From Thraustochytrium sp. TN22 (lineage: Eukaryota > Sar > Bigyra > Thraustochytrida > Thraustochytriidae): DNA of 64,000 nt. The notes under the pieces are model-generated. The model did no database searches, had not been told where the DNA came from, and was given only the letters and a program-made list of their open reading frames with translations. Positions 20,110 through 58,665 of this stretch are shown here, piece after piece (position 1 is the first letter of the stretch; every line of letters starts with the position of its first letter). The translations under genes and the position numbers were made by a program. The stretch lies in contig JABLUY010000046.1 of the NCBI GenBank assembly GCA_013306675.1, forward strand, positions 62,001 through 126,000, read 5' to 3'.

Positions 20110-23052
20110 ATGGCGCGCGAGGAGGAGGACGGCGCGACGACGCTGGCGGCGCTGGCGAGGGCCGGCGCGCTGCGGCCGAGGCGGCGCGCGAGGCCAGGCG
20201 CGGCGGGGCGCGAGGCGGAGCGCGAGCGGGTGCAGGAACACCCGCTTGCGCCGTGGCAGCGTAGGCTCAAGGGGCCGCCGCGCAGGGGCGCCAGCAGCGA
20301 GACCGTGGCCGTGGCCGCGGGCGACGACCCGCTGTCGTCGGCGGCAACGGCGGCAACGGCGGCATCGGCGAGGGCGAGGGCGAGGGCATCCGGACCAGCG
20401 TCTCCGCTCTACACGCCGTCACCGGAGTCGCCCCGCGGCGAAGAAGCGGACGAGAGCGTTGCGGCCGATGAGGCCCTCCGGCGAGCCGAGGAGGCCGCCT
20501 GGCAGCGCCTCGTGCGCTCGTGCAGGTCCGCTGCGCTGGCCGCCGATGGCAAGGTGCGTGTAAGGCAGGACGCGACAGTAGCTGGGATAACCGGGCCGCC
20601 GACCTCGCTCATGTCGCCGCTGGAGCAGGAAGACCTTAGCGGCGGTGCCACCGGGTCGCCGTCCGCGTCTCGGGCGCGCCTACGCCTGGGCCACCTCCAG
20701 GCGCGAACGCGCAGCCGTAGCGTCCTCTCGCAGGAAGGCGCCGGGGCCGCGACGGCCTCCTCTCCGAGGTCCCCGCGGTCGCCCTCCAGCGCCAGCATCC
20801 GCGCCGCAGCCGCGGCCGCGGCCGCCCCACCGCACCTCGTGAGCCTGACGCCCAAGGAGTGCGTGGACCGCGTGGCCTGGCTGCGCTCGGTTATGCAGCG
20901 GCGCTGGGCGCGAGGGGAGCGTACGCGCGCGCTCCGCGTGGCCATCCAAGCCGTGCGCCTGCTCACGGAGCCAGCGGCCCCGACGCAGCATGCATTCCTG
21001 TGGGCGCACGTCGTGGACCTCATCGACGGCCTCGGAGCTCAGGTACGCGCACTCGTGGAGGCGGCCGAGGACCGCGCCGACCTGTGCGCGCGCTGGCTCG
21101 AAAAGGTCGAGAGCGTGCGCGAGCTCCTGCCGCGGCTCTATATGCAGATGGCTCTCGTGCCGTGCTACGCGCAGCTCGCCTCCGCCGACGAGGCTGTCGC
21201 CGAGACGGAGCGCATCGCGCTCAGCATACGTGGCGTCGGCGACCCGGTCGCCGGCCTCTTCTGCCGTGCCTACTTGGCCCGCGTCGGCGGCAGGCTCCTG
21301 GCAGCCTCCAGCGATGCGCGCGCGCGCGGACACGCACGCTCGCGCTGGCGCCAGGTTCTTCTCGGCACCCTGGTCGACTTCCGCCGGTGTGCCGAGGACT
21401 TTCAGGCGCGTCGCGGCGCTGAGCTCTGGACCTTTCTCGGCGTCACCGCCGAGGCCTTCGAGGTCGCAATGGTGCCCGCCGCTCAGTGGATTATGCGCTG
21501 CATCGGCATCGGCGCCACCCAGGAGCACTTCGCACAAACGCTCCGCCAGTGCGCATCTTGGGGCCTCGGCCTTAGCGTGCTGTTTGGCGGCTTCGAGCCG
21601 CACCTCTACGCGCTGGACGCGGAGTCGCTCCTCGCGCGGGTCGAAGCCACCTCCTGGCACGCCTCGGTGCGCGGTTACGCTCTCGTGCGCATCGTTGAGG
21701 GGCTGCGCGCGGCGCGCGGCGGCGACATGCGTGTTAGCAGCGTCGCAGTCTGCGCGCCCGGTCTCCTGGACGCGCTCTGGACCGCCGTCGCAGGCCTCGA
21801 AGGTGAGGCCGCGTTTGCGGACGCGGCCGCCGCGCTCGTCCAGCTCCTCGCGGACCAAGACGTCGCGGCGGCGGCAGCAGCCTCCGGTGTCGCACCCTTT
21901 GCGAGGCGAGCCGCCATCCTGGGTGGCGTCGAGGCCCGCCTCGCGCAGACGTACGAGGCGCGAGCCGGGCTTGACGCGCTCGAGCCCCAAGTCGAGCGCA
22001 TGTGCCTGGCGCTCTGCGGCGCAGGCGCCGGCCTCACCGACGCGCACCTCGTGGCGCTCTTTGGCATGCTGCAAGGCCCTGGCAAGCTGACCGTCGGTAA
22101 GGCCCTTCTCGCGTCCTTCTCCGCGCGCGCCGACCCAGTCGAGGTGCACGCAGCCATCACGGTGGCGCGCGACTTGCACGACGCGGTCGACTCGCTCACG
22201 GGCATCGACGACCGGGCGGGCATCGATGCGCTCGTCTGCCGCGTGCTGGAGCGCATCGACTTCGGCGCCGACCTCGACCAGCAGTTCCGCGTGCTCGGTG
22301 AGTGCCGCGCATCCTTCCCCGCACTACCGCTCGTGCAGGAGCGCGTCATCATTGGCGTCGCGCAGCTCGTCTTGCGCGCCCAGGCACAGGACCGTCGCGC
22401 AGGACCCGTGGTCGCGCGCGGCGGCGGCGGCGGCGGCCGCAGCAGCGGCGGCGGTACTGCCAGTCTGCAAAAGGCCATGCTCGCGTTTTGTCACGTCAGC
22501 CTGCCCTCGCTCGCGGACGCCGGCTCGCGCTTTGCGCTCTCTGTAGACTGCGCGCAGGCTGCGCTCGCTGCCGGCTTTCTCCCGCAGACTGATGCGCTCT
22601 TGGAGCAGGCCCTCACAGCCCTGCCCGACGTGGAACCCGAGGCGCGCCGTCTCGAGTGCCTCTGTACCTTTGCGGCCTCGATCGTCCCGGTACCCGGGCC
22701 CCGCAGTGACCCGCTGCGTCTCGTTCGCCGCGCCCATGACCTCCTGGCAGACATGCCCTGGGACGCAAAAGGTTCGCGCCGCGGATGGGGCCGCATCGCG
22801 CTTCTTCGGGCGCTCGCCGCGCTCGCTCAGCCCCGCCTTGCGCCACGCCTTCCTGCCGTGCAGAGTAACGACCAGCTCTACTTTGACGACAAAGCCTATG
22901 AGGCGGCGCTCGAGTGCCTCTGCACCGACATCGCCACCACCCTCCTGCGTGACGACGTGCAGCAAGATGCTCCTGCGCTCGCCCGGGCCACCCACGACCT
23001 CCTCCTGTCCACCTTTGAGCCTGCGGACAACGAGAATGCCTCGACGTCCTAG
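20110..23052 (+). CDS. VPS35L: VPS35L, scaffold subunit of the Retriever recycling complex
   Basis: A 980-residue single-exon protein, close to the ~960 residues of the human protein. After a disordered basic/Ser-rich N-terminus (about 1-235) comes an all-helical solenoid. Family-typical stretches are LLPRLYMQMALVPCYAQL, then RGVGDPVAGLFCRAYLARVG, where animal VPS35L has the same GDP...A...Y.CRVG pattern. Later segments include the LGVTAEAFE and VLFGGFEPHLYALD regions. Family knowledge: VPS35L assembles with VPS26C and VPS29 and recycles integral membrane cargo from endosomes with SNX17 and the CCC/WASH machinery. The ATG at 20110 follows a CAGG tetramer tract directly. A Gly-rich loop (about 769-780) is a local low-complexity insertion. 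Confidence 0.85.
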   Translation: MAREEEDGATTLAALARAGALRPRRRARPGAAGREAERERVQEHPLAPWQRRLKGPPRRGASSETVAVAAGDDPLSSAATAATAASARARARASGPASPLYTPSPESPRGEEADESVAADEALRRAEEAAWQRLVRSCRSAALAADGKVRVRQDATVAGITGPPTSLMSPLEQEDLSGGATGSPSASRARLRLGHLQARTRSRSVLSQEGAGAATASSPRSPRSPSSASIRAAAAAAAAPPHLVSLTPKECVDRVAWLRSVMQRRWARGERTRALRVAIQAVRLLTEPAAPTQHAFLWAHVVDLIDGLGAQVRALVEAAEDRADLCARWLEKVESVRELLPRLYMQMALVPCYAQLASADEAVAETERIALSIRGVGDPVAGLFCRAYLARVGGRLLAASSDARARGHARSRWRQVLLGTLVDFRRCAEDFQARRGAELWTFLGVTAEAFEVAMVPAAQWIMRCIGIGATQEHFAQTLRQCASWGLGLSVLFGGFEPHLYALDAESLLARVEATSWHASVRGYALVRIVEGLRAARGGDMRVSSVAVCAPGLLDALWTAVAGLEGEAAFADAAAALVQLLADQDVAAAAAASGVAPFARRAAILGGVEARLAQTYEARAGLDALEPQVERMCLALCGAGAGLTDAHLVALFGMLQGPGKLTVGKALLASFSARADPVEVHAAITVARDLHDAVDSLTGIDDRAGIDALVCRVLERIDFGADLDQQFRVLGECRASFPALPLVQERVIIGVAQLVLRAQAQDRRAGPVVARGGGGGGRSSGGGTASLQKAMLAFCHVSLPSLADAGSRFALSVDCAQAALAAGFLPQTDALLEQALTALPDVEPEARRLECLCTFAASIVPVPGPRSDPLRLVRRAHDLLADMPWDAKGSRRGWGRIALLRALAALAQPRLAPRLPAVQSNDQLYFDDKAYEAALECLCTDIATTLLRDDVQQDAPALARATHDLLLSTFEPADNENASTS

Positions 23053-23652
23053 TAGACGCCAAGCAACGGCGCGAGCATGCCGCCTGGAGTATTTTTTTTT
23101 GCTGCAACTTGCCTACTGTCGCTTTTTTCTCTGGCTGCTGAGTGGGATCTGAATTCCCGTCCTCGCCCGCCCCCCGGAGGGCGCGACAACGATGCATTTT
23201 GTGCAGGGCACAGTCAAGACCAACATTAGGGCACGTTGAGCCACCTTTTCGGCTCGTCAGCAATGAACTCGTAATGGAGACGACCGAGGCAGCGTCCTCC
23301 TTTGATGCAGACCTGCCGTTTTCGACCGTGACCTCCTCTCTGCAGTGGCTCGAACCGGAAGCGGGCGTCCGGTTGCGTCGCTGCGCATAGACGCGTCCAC
23401 GCACGCAGACACAGCGCCGCGTCGAGGGATCCTGGCCGCACACAGACCATGAATTGACATGGCTGACTGAATTAGATGAATGAATGGTCGGGGCAGCTCG
23501 GGCTCGGAAATGAAGTGAAGACAAATGGAGGGAGGGAGGAGGATCCGAGTAACCTGATGCCGCTGCGCGCGGCTCGCCTTTCAGAAAAACATGCCTTGCT
23601 CGCGCGCTGGGGCGGCTGTGGCGAGCTTGTAGGGTCGCAGGACCTGTCATGA
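23053..23652. other. Intergenic, VPS35L 3' side, no gene seen
   Basis: T-rich 3' flank near 23090-23130, then moderate-G+C DNA with short unconvincing frames on both strands. Nothing with domain-like sequence was found. Confidence 0.4.
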
Positions 23653-24013
23653 CAGACTGTATGCTCGGCGGGCTCGGGTTCGCCCATGTCGGCCCCACTC
23701 CGCACCTCTTGCTCGGGCTTGGCAAACTTGTCACGAGAGATAAATGATGACCGAGCGAGTGGTCTGGTGGCGGTCCTAGCTCGCTGCGCCAGCCTTGCCA
23801 AGGAGTCGAACTTGGCAGCCACTGAGGTCGTTGCCGTCGCGGCCGGGGTTGGTCACGACTCTGATCAGGCGGTCATAGGAACCCGCCATGTCTGTCAAAA
23901 AAGTCCTGCAGCTTGGGTCAGGTCGCGATAAGTTGTATTCGGTGAGTATATCACGCCTATGCTTTCGTGCGCGACGCCGTTCAATCCGTCATACTCGACT
24001 TTCAGTGTTGTGT
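23653..24013 (+). repeat. Diverged ~360 bp repeat, copy A (direct)
   Basis: Begins CAGACTG-TATGCTCGGCGGG. It shares with copy B, in the same order, GGGCTCGGGTTCGCCCA, the ACGAGAGA block, an AAGGA-TCG-ACT-GGCAGCC block, TCAGGCGGTCATAGG and a GGTGAG block near its end. It is placed head-to-tail with copy B at a period of 361 bp and is the most diverged copy. No terminal target-site duplication or transposase was seen. Confidence 0.75.
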
Positions 24014-24370
24014 CAGACTGGATGCTCGGCGGGCTCGGGTTCGCCCACGGCGCTCACACCCCCCGCCACCTGCTCGGCAAGTAGTAGCACGAGAGAGGAA
24101 GGATGGTTGAGCTATTCATGGTCTGCCAGCTGGCCTAGCGCTAGCCTGCGGCGCTAGTCAAGGACTCGGACTCGGCAGCCGACGACGTCGTCGCCTGCCC
24201 GGCCGTAGTCGGCCAGGTGTACTGTCAGGCGGTCATAGGGCCGGTTCCATCTGCCCCTTGCCCTGCGGCCTCGGCCAGGTCTTGGTACTGTTGTAGCTGG
24301 TGAGCACCTCGCTGGTGGTGTCGTGCACGATGCCGTCCTTGTCGCCGTACTTGTCAAGACCTTGAAGGCT
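24014..24370 (+). repeat. Diverged ~360 bp repeat, copy B (left arm of inverted pair)
   Basis: Begins CAGACTGGATGCTCGGCGGG and ends near the GATGCCGTCCTTG and CCGTACTTG blocks beside the AT-rich island. It matches copy A directly and copy C inverted. On its minus strand, reading away from the island, it has a frame with KYGDKDGI..DTT..VLTSYNST that parallels a frame in copy C. Confidence 0.85.
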
Positions 24371-24593
24371 GGAAATTTTATAATGTATAATATACTTTCC
24401 AAATTCAGACCACAATTTTTAATCCATTCGTGCAGTTCAATAGAAAATTGGTAAAAACAAAATTAATTAAAATAATTTCGAAAATCAGAAAAATGTTCGG
24501 TAGCTTTTGAATTAAAATTGCATAAATTTTTCTCAATTTAAAATATATATAAATTTTGTGAACAAAAATTACTTTACTCCTTAGATAAACAAA
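24371..24593. other. AT-rich island (~20% G+C) between inverted repeat arms
   Basis: About 220 bp of mostly A/T DNA with poly-A and poly-T runs, in a window that is otherwise strongly G+C-rich. The edges coincide with the inner ends of inverted copies B and C. No coding potential was found. Candidate roles are centromere core, replication origin or the inner part of a decayed mobile element. The sequence alone does not decide between them. Confidence 0.9.
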
Positions 24594-24599
24594 AGGTTA

Positions 24600-24984
24600 C
24601 GACACTCAAGGTCAAGTACGGCGGCAAGGACGGCATTATGCGCGATAACACCGGCAAGGTGCTTACCAGCTACTACAGCACCGCGATCTGACCCAGACTG
24701 GAGGGCAAGGGACAAGCGCGACCGGCCCTATGACCGCCTGACCGCACAGATGATCTGGCCGACCACTGCCGGGCAGGCGACGTCGTCACTGGATGCCGAC
24801 TCCGACTCCTTGACCCGCTGAGCGCCGCAGGCTAGGCCAGTTGGCAGGCCCTTTGAAGAATAGCTGCACCATCTCTCTCAGTACTTGCCGGGCAGGTGTA
24901 AGTAAGTAAGTATGCCCAGGCTGTCAAGGTGGAGCGGGGTAGGGCCGCCTCGGGCGAGCCCGAGCCCGCCGAGCATCTAGTCTG
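24600..24984 (-). repeat. Diverged ~360-385 bp repeat, copy C (right arm, inverted)
   Basis: Read on the minus strand it starts CAGACTAGATGCTCGGCGGG and follows copy B block by block, including GACGACGTCGCCTGCCCGGC, TCAGGCGGTCATAGGGCCGG and TAGCTGGT-AGCACCT. A GTAA tetramer run (24898-24912) is an insertion relative to copy B. Its plus strand has a short frame with KYGGKDGIM..NTGKVLTSYYST from about 24610 to the TGA at 24690. Confidence 0.85.
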
Positions 24985-26531
24985 ACATTCTTACAAAATC
25001 ATGTGTAAACGAGGTTGAGCAGAGTTTCACAGTCGCTCTCAGCGCTCGCGGGCAGCGAGCACCGGACCGGGGCACTACCAGTGCGTCAAAGCCGATTCAC
25101 ACGGGCGGAGCGCGATCGAAAAACTAACTGCAAGCTGACCAAAGCAAGCTCCACATTGACCGCCGACTTTCAGCTACTGCAATGCAATTACGCCGGCCTT
25201 GGCATGTTGTCCAAGCCGAGCTTCTTGATCGTCTTGTTCTTACTTCACCAACATCAAGACAAACAAACCTCCGCGCTGCCTGTCACAGGCTCGCTGCTAC
25301 GACGCGCAGGTCACCTGGTGGTAGCACACAGCTCGCACAGCTTGCCCGCTGCAGACACAGCCGAGGCTTCGTTCGGGATTTCCTTCGCCGTTGCTGGCGC
25401 CGTGGGGCCGGAAAAAGAAGCGCCGTAAGTACAACCGCACAATGAGGCGGATTCGACTACAGATCAACTCCAGTGCCTCACCAGAGTACCTCACCGCCAT
25501 CTCGCAGGCGCCACCCCGCCTCGAGCCACAGCAATCGGGACGACACCTTTTACAGCCCGCGTCCCTCGCGAAGTGGGAGGGCTCTGTCATCCAAGATTTT
25601 TGTAGGCAGGAAGGTCAACGTCTTCAACTTGAATCTCCCAACGACAAAGAGCGGCACGGGTTCGGCCGCAAACGGGCAGACGATAGGGATGCAAGCCTCG
25701 CCCGGGACGTAGCGTGCGCCATGTCGCCGTACACAACAACACTTGGTCACTTTAAATTGCGAAACAGATGCGCCAGCCGCTCGACTTCGCCTCGACGAGT
25801 TGGCCTGGGCAAGGCGCCCGCCCGCTCATAAGGATGCCAACCTGGCCTCAACCGCCACCACGACTATAACGGTGGTGACTGTGTCAGGGAGCATCCGAGT
25901 GCGATGGTCAACTTTCAGGCTCGAGAATAGTTGTTTTTTCGATTGATTGACGCGACGCATTCATCGGTCGGGCAGAGACTTTTTGCGTTTTTCTCGGGGT
26001 AAGGAGCTTGCCTGCCGTTAGCCGCAACTTGCCGAGCATAGCAGAAACACAAGTCTCAAGTCAGTATCTGGCTAATAACGAGCAAGGCGGACGGAGCCTG
26101 CAGCATTCGCATTGAGGCTTTTGAACTTGAAAGGCGGAGCTGTCTGTAGACGCTGAGGCCACCCCCCCACTCGCCGTCTTCCTCGCTCTCACTTTCGACT
26201 CGCAACAACGCCAGAGCACAGCACACAGCGTTCTGCACTCTCTTACAACAGGCAGCTAGCTTTGTCTGGAGCAGGCTCGCTTGCCGGCTGCACCGGCTGG
26301 CGTCTCGCCAGTGGCCTGACAGTGAGTTCGCTTCAACCTGGAAAGGAAAGAGGACCCATGAGTTCCGTCCCGGCCTTGGCGGTCACCACCAACCCGGCGC
26401 GGCGGCGCCGCGGGGGCGAGTGGAGCAGAGCGCGGTGGCGCGCGCAGGGACGCGCGAGTCGCTTGCCCGCGCGGCAGCCGAGGGCTCCGCCGGGCGTGCG
26501 GGGCGGCGGCGGCGGCGGCGGCGGCGGCGAG
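24985..26531. other. Gene-poor interval, nothing firmly supported
   Basis: G+C is lower than in flanking genes. Several open frames of 60-150 codons overlap on both strands near 25300-25830 (for example a Cys-rich one on the minus strand), but none has a recognisable domain, a good start context or splice support. The region could hold decayed coding sequence or UTR. The last ~100 bp before 26532 include a GGC triplet run (about 26504-26528) just before the TEX10/IPI1 start. Confidence 0.35.
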
Positions 26532-41991: not shown

Positions 41992-42398
41992 ACCGGTACG
42001 ACGAGGAGGAGGAATGTGGGTACGCACGTTAAAATTGGCTTCTTTGCCGCCGCATACAGCCAGCCACATGGCGAAGGCGGCGCGCACTTGAGAGTCGGCT
42101 GTAAAAACACGTGGCATGAGCGTCCCAAGATCGATGATAACGATGATGAATAATCTGACTCTGTCCCTGTTTTACTACTGCGGACACGGCAGGCACGCGC
42201 ACGTTCAGAACGCGCTTGCGTTGAGTAGTATGGGATGGGAATCTTTCGATTGATGCTTGCACGAATTTGAATTCACGCTCTTTTTCAGTTCGCACTCCTC
42301 TCCTTCTCCGGCCCTCGTTCTCTCCACGACTCCGGACCTCAATCCACAACAAGAGCAGTTCATATTTCTGCTTCGATCGTTCTACCATACCATACGGT
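41992..42398. other. Convergent 3' interval, no gene seen
   Basis: About 0.4 kb between the tail-to-tail vWA and OXA1 genes, lower in G+C, with T-rich stretches suited to 3' UTRs. No open frame with domain-like sequence was found. Confidence 0.4.
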
Positions 42399-43562
42399 TT
42401 AGTCCTTGCGACGCGTGAAACGCTGCCGGCGCGGCGGGCGCGTGCTGAAGACCTCCTGGTCAGCCGAGGAGAGAGGCGTGGCGCCGGTCACGGTGGTGCT
42501 GTCCGTGCCAGCCTTGGTGGCGTCAAGCGTGGCGGCAATGCCAGGCAGCACATCAATGCCCAGCGCAGGCTTGACGCCCGGTATCCTAAAGAGGAGCGAC
42601 TGCGTGAGCGAGAAAATGTTGGTGGCGGTCCAGTAGAGCGCAATGGCCGACGGCTGCGTCATGGTAATGGGCACCATGGCGACAGACATGGCGCGCATGA
42701 TGAGCTTGAGGCGAGCGGTGGCCTCCGGAGAGCTGTTCTCACTGAGCGGTGCGAGCTCCGACATGGAGATGAAGCTGATGGCGCACAAGATGGGCAAGCC
42801 GTAGGTCGGGTCGGCCTCGGCGAGGTTCTGGAACCAAAGCGTGCCGCCCTGCGTGAAGCTAGGGTACGAGCTGGCCATGTCGCGCAGCGTCCAGAACATG
42901 GTCAGAAAGATCGGGATCTGCGCGATGGGCATAGCAAACGTGGCCCAGATCTTGACGCCGTGGCGAGCCTGCAGCTGGTTCACCTGGCGCGCGTATTCGT
43001 ACTGCTGCTCCTGCGTCTCCGCTGGGCGCTCCTTCATGCGCGCCGTCAGCGCGTTCATCTCCGGCATCATGTGCTGCATGCGGGTCTGGTTGCGAATCTG
43101 GTAGACGGAGAGCGGGAACATGGCGGCGCGCAGCACGGCCGTGGCGGCGAGGATGGACATCCACCACGGCAGATCCGTGGCGAGGTGGAAGTAGTCGATA
43201 AGGTACGTCGCCAAGTCCACCGGCGTGTAGCCCAGCTTGGACGGATCCGGGTCCTGCAGCGACATCGCGCTGGCGGCGTCCGCCGCGCTCGTCAGGTCCG
43301 CCGCGTCATGCGACCACCAGCTCGCGTCCGTGGCGGCCGTGGTGGCGCCGCTCTCCTCGCTCTTGTCCTCGAGCGGCGGCACGCCTCCCGGCACGGCGCT
43401 GGACAGCGCGCGCGTCCATGCCGGCGCCCCCTGCGCCGGCCTGGCCGCGGCCAGCGGCCGCAGCGGCCGCAGCGACCGCTGCACGGGCGCCGCGCCCGCG
43501 CGCAGGCCTGTCAGCGCCGCTCCCGCGCGAGGGGCGCTGCGCAGCGCCGCCAGGAGCAGCAT
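42399..43562 (-). CDS. OXA1: OXA1/YidC/Alb3 family mitochondrial membrane insertase
   Basis: A 387-residue protein. I chose the ATG at 43562 (MLLLAALRSAPR) because upstream in-frame sequence is only G+C-rich repeat. The Arg/Ala-rich N-terminus is a probable mitochondrial presequence, with RALSSAVPGG as a likely cleavage area. The conserved core has DLPWWMSILAATAVLRAAMFPL with the family Arg in the first membrane helix, then NQTRMQHMMPEMNALTARMKERP. PIFLTMFWTLRDMA, GLPILCAISFISMSE and ALYWTATNIFSLTQSLLFRIPG follow. The C-terminal tail is short and basic (RRQRFTRRKD). Family knowledge: OXA1 inserts mitochondrially encoded and some imported proteins into the inner membrane next to the mitoribosome. 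It is head-to-head with the TTC12-like gene. Confidence 0.9.
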   Translation of the reverse strand: MLLLAALRSAPRAGAALTGLRAGAAPVQRSLRPLRPLAAARPAQGAPAWTRALSSAVPGGVPPLEDKSEESGATTAATDASWWSHDAADLTSAADAASAMSLQDPDPSKLGYTPVDLATYLIDYFHLATDLPWWMSILAATAVLRAAMFPLSVYQIRNQTRMQHMMPEMNALTARMKERPAETQEQQYEYARQVNQLQARHGVKIWATFAMPIAQIPIFLTMFWTLRDMASSYPSFTQGGTLWFQNLAEADPTYGLPILCAISFISMSELAPLSENSSPEATARLKLIMRAMSVAMVPITMTQPSAIALYWTATNIFSLTQSLLFRIPGVKPALGIDVLPGIAATLDATKAGTDSTTVTGATPLSSADQEVFSTRPPRRQRFTRRKD

Positions 43563-57685: not shown

Positions 57686-58665
57686 GGTCAGTCGCCTTGG
57701 GCAACGGCGTCGCCCACACGGCCGACCCGGCCAGCGCGGCGCGGCGAGGCGCGGCGGCGCCAAGCCGGCAGGTCAGCCAGCCAGCCAGCCAGCTAGCTAG
57801 CCAGCCAGCCAGCCAGCCAGCCAGCGAGCGCCACGCGGCCGTCGCTTGCGCGCACGTAGACGAGACGAGATGAGATCACCGGTCTGACGAGCTTTGCCTG
57901 CCGCAGCCGCTCGCAAACAGAGCGACCAGCGTCGCGGGCCGGCCATCTTCAAGTTCATCACTGTCACACGATCGACCCGAACTCGCCCAGCGCCGGCGGC
58001 GGCCTTGGTAAACTAAGCTCGTACTTAGGGTACCGCCACGAATTTCCACGACGCGCGCGTCAGATAAATAATAGCGAGCTTGCAGCGCCCGTCGATGCGC
58101 GACGAAAACGATGGCCAGCAGGAACACTGTGCGACAATAACAGTGCCTTTGGTGTCTGCGTCTGCGTCTGTGGTCTGCAGGTTCCTTCGAAGCTTTGTCA
58201 AGGGTCGAATAATGATAGATCCCATGCAGTTTCAAGAAAACGGAAGATTTCGCACAAGCCCGTGTTGGTCGCAGTCGGATCAGTGCGTCGTAAGTTGCTG
58301 CTTCGCACAACTTGTTGCACGCTGTTCATGCTCGAATTGCAGAGAATCACGGGCCAAGCCACCACACCATCGCCCTTCACTCAGCACTACACCCGCTGGG
58401 CTTGATCCTTTCAGCTCGACATGGTCGCGATCCTTTCCAGTGCAAGAAACTCGCATCTTGCTCCTCGCTCTTTCGACGCCTTTCTTCATGATAGTTGTCA
58501 GTGGCCTTTTTCGTTGTTGCTCGTGATGGAACAGACTGTTGCGACTTGCCTCTCGCTCTTCTCGAGCCTGTATGTGCAACGATTGCTCTTGCCTCTCGCT
58601 CTGTTCGCTCTGTTCGAGCCTGTATGTACAACGATTGCTCTTCTCAACGCAGGCCAGGCGACGAA
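57686..58665. other. Intergenic, no firm gene
   Basis: Starts with a CAGC/CTAG tetramer array (about 57776-57826) near the SEC10 start. The rest has moderate G+C with short frames on both strands. A TATGT(G/A)CAACGATTGCTCTT block occurs twice (58571-58590 and 58623-58643), a local duplication of about 50 bp period. Confidence 0.4.

Follow-up and report, generated by a model that had tools for sequence, protein, structure and literature searches.

Point centromeres of Saccharomyces contain a short AT-rich element, CDEII, whose length is constrained and whose sequence is free. Among stramenopiles, the diatom Phaeodactylum is described as having short, simple AT-rich CENP-A regions, and oomycete centromeres as marked by clustered copies of the copia element CoLT, in two relatives mostly with a single cluster on each contig (accessible part of PMC7082073). 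A 500-bp low-G+C diatom segment maintains a plasmid in the thraustochytrid Aurantiochytrium, which is reported to be much stricter than the diatom on maintenance sequences, one of the low-G+C inserts tried having worked best; the plasmid for thraustochytrid genetics presented there is built on diatom DNA (PMC12227449, in its available sections). In fission yeast, A+T-rich DNA, even when synthetic or bacterial, functions as a centromere (PMC8754631, as excerpted). Among yeasts, centromeres sit in clusters of Ty5-like elements in some species and in inverted repeats in others; the Ty5-like elements of W. anomalus are adjacent to the centromere motif without occupying it (PMC12711049, in part). 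In the open-access literature (preprints and most subscription papers lie outside this scope), we found no description of a native thraustochytrid centromere in the accessible text of PMC12227449 and PMC8467673.

The stretch analyzed here (the window) is 64 kb of the genome of Thraustochytrium sp. TN22 (C394:62001-126000, in an assembly of 37.9 Mb and 453 contigs), in which a first-pass annotation had described an AT-rich island between inverted arms and had proposed a centromere, with a replication origin or a decayed mobile element as alternatives. The core, put at ~220 bp and about one-fifth G+C, was recovered with that length and composition (Table 1). The lowest 200-bp G+C in the window, 20%, is found at 24372, and values below 45% occur only in 200-bp intervals starting between 24301 and 24501 (sampled every 50 bp across the 64 kb). 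The description of the window as G+C-rich and of the surroundings as gene-poor also holds: G+C is 53-59% in each 500-bp step between 23001 and 26000, as against mostly 60-78% elsewhere, with isolated low steps at 58001-58500 (52.8%) and 42001-42500 (55.2%). The flanking ORFs of at least 300 aa end at 23052 (+) and begin at 26262 (+), and the space between them is free of such ORFs save for a 373-aa minus-strand frame (22613-23734) that overlaps its left end. An Rfam search of the window returned nothing above gathering scores. Left of the island, at 22552-23003, short direct repeats with a spacing of 258 bp lie at the end of a 980-aa frame, which has a weak match to Vps35.

Table 1. Features of the island and its surroundings, in window coordinates
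Feature	Position	Strand	Basis and remarks
Gene-poor, G+C-depressed surroundings	23053..26261	.	ORF gap and G+C steps; comparable dip to ~2 kb over 20 loci
Third LTR1 fragment, older and more diverged	23650..23877	-	LTR positions 147-367, 70%; orientation as left arm
Left arm, solo LTR1 (Ty1/copia-type)	24011..24353	-	LTR positions 31-367, 5' side toward core; 84.8% to young copy
AT-rich core, proposed centromere core	24373..24594	.	222 bp, 20.3% G+C; maximal AT-scoring segment; same kind at 19 other loci
Right arm, solo LTR1, opposite orientation	24600..24987	+	LTR positions 18-367, 5' side toward core; 76.5% to young copy

The inverted, diverged arms of ~360-385 bp are real, and the outer coordinates first given for them are right to within a few bases of the LTR matches. 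When 24006-24370 is aligned with the reverse complement of 24600-24990, 289 of the 347 aligned columns are identical, and a further 62 columns are gaps; by BLAST, the arms are 75% identical over 24067-24353 and 24613-24898, and 84% identical over the outer ~60 bp. The comparison with the inverted-repeat layout of fungal centromeres did not survive, and we rejected the arms as a structural inverted repeat, since the best match of each sits on another contig and not in its partner. The nearest copies elsewhere are 89% identical to the left arm (arm A) and 83% to the right (arm B), whereas arm-to-arm identity is 77%; the arms are therefore independent, old solo LTRs, the right one being more diverged from a young copy than the left. 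The first ~30 LTR1 positions are missing or diverged in the left arm, and because neither LTR match includes the first 17-30 positions, the target duplications of the window arms are unreadable.

The family to which both arms belong, LTR1, is 367 bp long and ends in TGTCAG...CTGACA. Between LTR1 copies of the same orientation, on the LTR-sense strand, we found a gag-like CCHC knuckle (C33) and a copia-type RNase H (C323), both domains being assigned by reading the sequence. With the RNase H from C323 as a query, identity is 26-28% to frames on C9, C100, C397, and C67, which have RVT_2 as well, and reaches 85% over a short stretch of C75; all five genome hits of the RVT_2 profile (PF07727) fall on the same four contigs, C9, C100, C397, and C67, and the control genomes are silent. 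A second family, LTR2, is 1143 bp long and ends in TACG...CGTA rather than TG...CA. We dropped an alternative assignment of it to DNA transposons bounded by terminal inverted repeats when we found that two LTR2 copies on C67 (62265-63404 and 69046-70185) flank RVT_2 hits within a 2028-aa open frame (letters examined from 67000 onward); LTR2 is therefore the LTR of a second copia element. LTR2 occurs on 16 contigs, 12 of which have a core; C23 is without a core in the part examined, and C408 (401 bp examined), C43, and C207 fall outside the comparison. The LTR ends, the target duplications described below, and the gag and pol features mark the arm families as Ty1/copia LTR retrotransposons. Further copia-type RT/RNase H matches, at C9:16968-18359, C397:149596-150987, and C100:2481-3878, belong to open frames 1346-1552 aa long; their contigs are absent from the match lists of both LTR1 and LTR2.

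The first-pass annotation had suggested searching the assembly for similar islands, and this search, together with one for A/T runs, yielded at least 20 cores on 20 contigs, one each. Queried with 24000-25000 (1 kb), the assembly shows 98 matches, tightly clustered on 24 contigs, a recurrence far beyond chance. Within the stretches examined (up to 10 kb around the 23 other clusters; 6.1 kb on C90 and 4.7 kb on C375, limited by contig ends), an AT core lies near arm copies on 19 of the 24 matching contigs, and the twentieth core, on C99, came from a search for A/T runs (2.5 kb examined). The five contigs with no core in the stretch examined are C75 (a 4.7-kb N gap), C321, C98, C199, and C23 (match at the contig start). 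The LTR1 pieces found with no AT core on C199, C321, C98, and C23 may be ectopic insertions, or relics of sites that once were centromeres. Five clusters (on C67, C442, C323, C75, and C409) contain N gaps, of at least 2.7-4.7 kb, which could conceal longer centromeric DNA. Neither core nor LTR was present in three stretches of 10 kb that lie on C442 and C394 at a distance from the clusters.

Core length ranges from 142 to 252 bp (mean 193, SD 26; n = 20) and G+C from 15 to 25%; each core stands alone at its locus, the second-best AT segment scoring 8-19.4 against 69-103 for the cores. No sequence common to them was found: blastn between cores gives stretches of 14-43 bp only, the best being 22-37 bp with E ~1e-4, and for k = 6-10 the most widespread k-mer is in no more cores than the best of 300 shuffles, a comparison that a short degenerate motif could escape. 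Some individual words, CAATTTTGA for example, are above their own mean in the shuffles, yet they are not more widespread than the best shuffled word. Over the 20 loci, G+C is ~62% out to 2 kb from the core vs. 68% at 4-5 kb, and this dip persists when the LTRs are excluded. The occurrence of the 20 cores on 20 different contigs is not significant by itself, as random placement predicts 0.98 same-contig pairs (an estimate in which the size-biased mean is set to 196 kb, the average size of the contigs with a core).

To bound the number of cores, we counted 28-base positions with at least 25 A/T: 823 genome-wide. Of these, the 20 cores hold 490, and another 31 fall in the 2.5 kb examined of C318, an AT-rich contig that we rejected as a nuclear island and that reads as mitochondrial. 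The same density over all 22.35 kb of C318 would amount to ~277 positions, leaving ~56, or two average cores; if the remainder of C318 held none, 302 positions would be left, corresponding to at most ~12 further average cores. A/T runs of at least 17 number 80 in the genome, 23 in the cores and 57 outside, some of the latter mitochondrial. The census is incomplete, and LTR-free cores may remain.

To characterize the arrangement of the LTRs, we merged and counted their pieces at the 20 core-bearing loci (n = 76, where the pieces of one copy may count twice). They crowd around the cores, 28 of the 76 lying within 50 bp, 46 within 500 bp, and 55 within 1 kb, with the farthest at 4.4 kb. They are also oriented: the 5' end points toward the core in 43 of 48 LTR1 and 25 of 28 LTR2 pieces, and among pieces of at least 300 bp in 22 of 25 (two-sided binomial p = 1.6e-4) and 14 of 16 (p = 0.004), respectively. 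The exceptions are LTR1 pieces on C20 (two), C111, C287, and C427 and LTR2 pieces on C67, C409, and C331. With this polarity, transcription from most LTRs would head away from the core. The combination of arms varies from locus to locus (LTR1/LTR1, LTR1/LTR2, LTR2/LTR2, or one side only), and the elements differ in age as well. Exact 5-bp target duplications bound 11 of the 29 two-ended copies of both families; three of them are pure A/T (AAATA, TTTTT, and AAAAT), all at core edges, while the remaining eight each contain G or C. In the loci examined, we saw no core interrupted by an LTR, though split cores might be missed or lost there. At the C99 core, within 2.5 kb examined, blastn detects just two LTR2-like fragments (68-73 bp), although by eye the right edge resembles the LTR2 start; on this basis we regard the core as primary and the LTRs as secondary. 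On C67 (61158-63404 and 69046-70224), a full LTR2 element is apparently nested in an older, inverted LTR2, and the two halves of the latter overlap by five bases (LTR positions 35-39), a target duplication beside the core.

We assign a probability of about 0.7 to the reading that the cores are short AT-rich centromeres at whose edges copia elements land. The first-pass proposal of a centromere is thereby the best supported one, through the like cores on 20 contigs, the G+C-depressed surroundings, and the kinetochore candidates described below. Each core would be the DNA of a short centromere, its ~190 bp approximating one nucleosome plus linker, in which A+T richness and length are kept and sequence is not, and it would be placed within a few kilobases of gene-poor, G+C-depressed DNA. 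The LTR1 and LTR2 families would integrate preferentially beside the core or at its edge with the 5' end toward it, LTR-LTR recombination would reduce them to solo LTRs, and a solo LTR left on each side, as in the window, would give the appearance of an inverted repeat around an AT-rich core. The polarity could arise if integration senses the orientation of centromere chromatin; on the other hand, it could reflect the loss of chromosomes whose LTR promoter transcribes into the core. We would expect CenH3 to occupy the cores and each chromosome to have one core. Chromosome numbers for labyrinthulomycetes or Aurantiochytrium were not found in the open-access literature.

The genes of the host are compatible with such a centromere. 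A candidate CenH3 on C132 (47000-48400) is an H3 variant with two additional residues inserted between histone-fold helices 1 and 2 and a long N-terminal tail of its own that includes an acidic stretch; among solved structures, it is closest to an H3/CENP-A chimera and to Cnp1 of fission yeast, with canonical H3 scoring nearly as high. The CENP-C_C profile matches on C254 at 2.6e-9, above the cut-off, and 4 of 14 prokaryote controls matched too, below the cut-off; the C254 product is a candidate CENP-C and may be a cousin of the CENP-C_C fold. Because candidates for both proteins are present, CenH3-type centromeres are likely in Thraustochytrium sp. TN22. A search for Ndc10 of the CBF3 complex (PF16787) gave no match in the genome, and all 14 control genomes were equally silent.

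The pure-A/T target duplications at core edges are what speaks for a different account, in which the cores are AT-rich DNA that serves another function (such as that of a chromatin boundary or a heterochromatin nucleation site) or none at all, and copia integrases simply favor AT-rich or nucleosome-depleted DNA. We consider this unlikely: most of the exact duplications are not pure A/T, base composition does not account for the orientation of the LTRs, and the likeness of the 20 cores in length and composition despite their dissimilar sequences, with a single AT segment per locus, points to a constraint on the core itself. Replication origins fare worse on the numbers. Some yeast origins are short and AT-rich, as the cores are, but eukaryotic origins are spaced at tens to hundreds of kilobases, and 20 cores (or ~32 at the loosest bound) in 37.9 Mb amount to one per 1.2-1.9 Mb, too few for this role, which we regard as very improbable; a core might additionally serve as an origin.

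The mobile-element alternative raised by the first-pass annotation holds for the arms, which are copia-type LTRs, and fails for the core. That core and arms together form one decayed element with terminal inverted repeats is suggested by the inverted arrangement and mobile-element descent of the arms, yet it is barely credible: the loci have LTRs in common and differ in their core sequences, arm combinations vary, LTR1 and LTR2 stem from two different elements, 11 LTR copies each have their own 5-bp target duplication, and in none of the 20 loci did we see the same core between the same arms with a common outer duplication. A centromere of the fungal inverted-repeat type, with arms that serve as functional pericentromere and are kept alike by conversion, would fit the single orientation in which most LTR pieces face the core. 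Under conversion, however, siblings should be nearest relatives, and a sibling in the same locus is nearest for only 4 of the 18 LTR1 copies that have one (two identical same-orientation pairs, resembling both LTRs of single young elements) and for none of 9 LTR2 copies; some cores, moreover, have a recognized LTR on one side only. We judge this arrangement highly unlikely, and return to short AT-rich centromeres with copia elements at their edges as the preferred reading.

So read, the TN22 cores can be compared with several described systems. They share with the diatom type the stramenopile relationship, a short stretch of low G+C (15-25%), and the lack of a common sequence; they differ in being shorter, ~190 bp against the 500-bp diatom segment, and in that most are flanked by oriented copia LTRs. 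Phytophthora sojae, with its CoLT centromeres, is likewise a stramenopile with copia clusters, and the TN22 clusters coincide with cores on 19 of the 24 LTR1-query contigs and 12 of the 16 LTR2 contigs, the centromeric identity of which is our proposal; P. sojae centromeres, however, are long and transposon-rich, whereas in TN22 mostly solo LTRs surround a short AT core. In the budding yeasts Cyberlindnera and Wickerhamomyces, with their Ty5-cluster and motif centromeres, copia-family elements and LTRs are likewise concentrated at centromeres, whereas in the TN22 cores we found no common motif; the accessible part of PMC12711049 gives no rule for the orientation of the elements relative to the core. 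The resemblance to CDEII of the Saccharomyces point centromere is that the TN22 cores, too, are short, AT-rich, length-constrained, and sequence-free; conserved flanking motifs of the CDEI/CDEIII kind were not seen at the cores, whose flanks are LTR1, LTR2, or neither, and the lineage differs. A more far-reaching idea, which we hold tentatively and with more doubt than belief, is that these cores represent a third, independent kind of minimal centromere, in which a motif-free AT core of ~190 bp, the size of a single nucleosome, suffices for kinetochore assembly through composition and length alone, and the integration machinery of two copia families senses kinetochore polarity, so that the 5' end almost always comes to lie toward the kinetochore. 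The composition-alone part is weakened because Aurantiochytrium does not maintain every low-G+C insert well (PMC12227449, in the sections available).

If the cores are centromeres, they are candidate sequences for testing in industrially used thraustochytrids, and they would form a bridge between two centromere types, the AT-rich one of diatoms and the copia-marked one of oomycetes. The sufficiency of composition and nucleosome-sized length would then become testable. A rare handle on how an integrase reads centromere chromatin, or on the effects of transcription there, would come from the way the two retrotransposon families are oriented around the core.

Further searches concern the assembly and its host. 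Arrays of three TTAGGG or TTTAGGG units were absent from the assembly, the telomeres being either unassembled or of another sequence, and the LHC chlorophyll-binding family gave no match in the genome and one among the 14 controls (a cyanobacterium). The host is probably a marine, non-photosynthetic protist, neither a fungus nor a diatom. The nad5 frame at C318:6600-9100 uses no TTA and 15 TTG in 286 codons (the frame leaves the stretch; gene names were assigned by reading), two further frames on C318 are also free of TTA, and the rps13 frame reaches a TTA at the expected end of the protein. TTA is a stop codon in the Thraustochytrium mitochondrial code (NCBI table 23). It seems to be a mitochondrial stop codon here as well, which points to a labyrinthulomycete (thraustochytrid) host.
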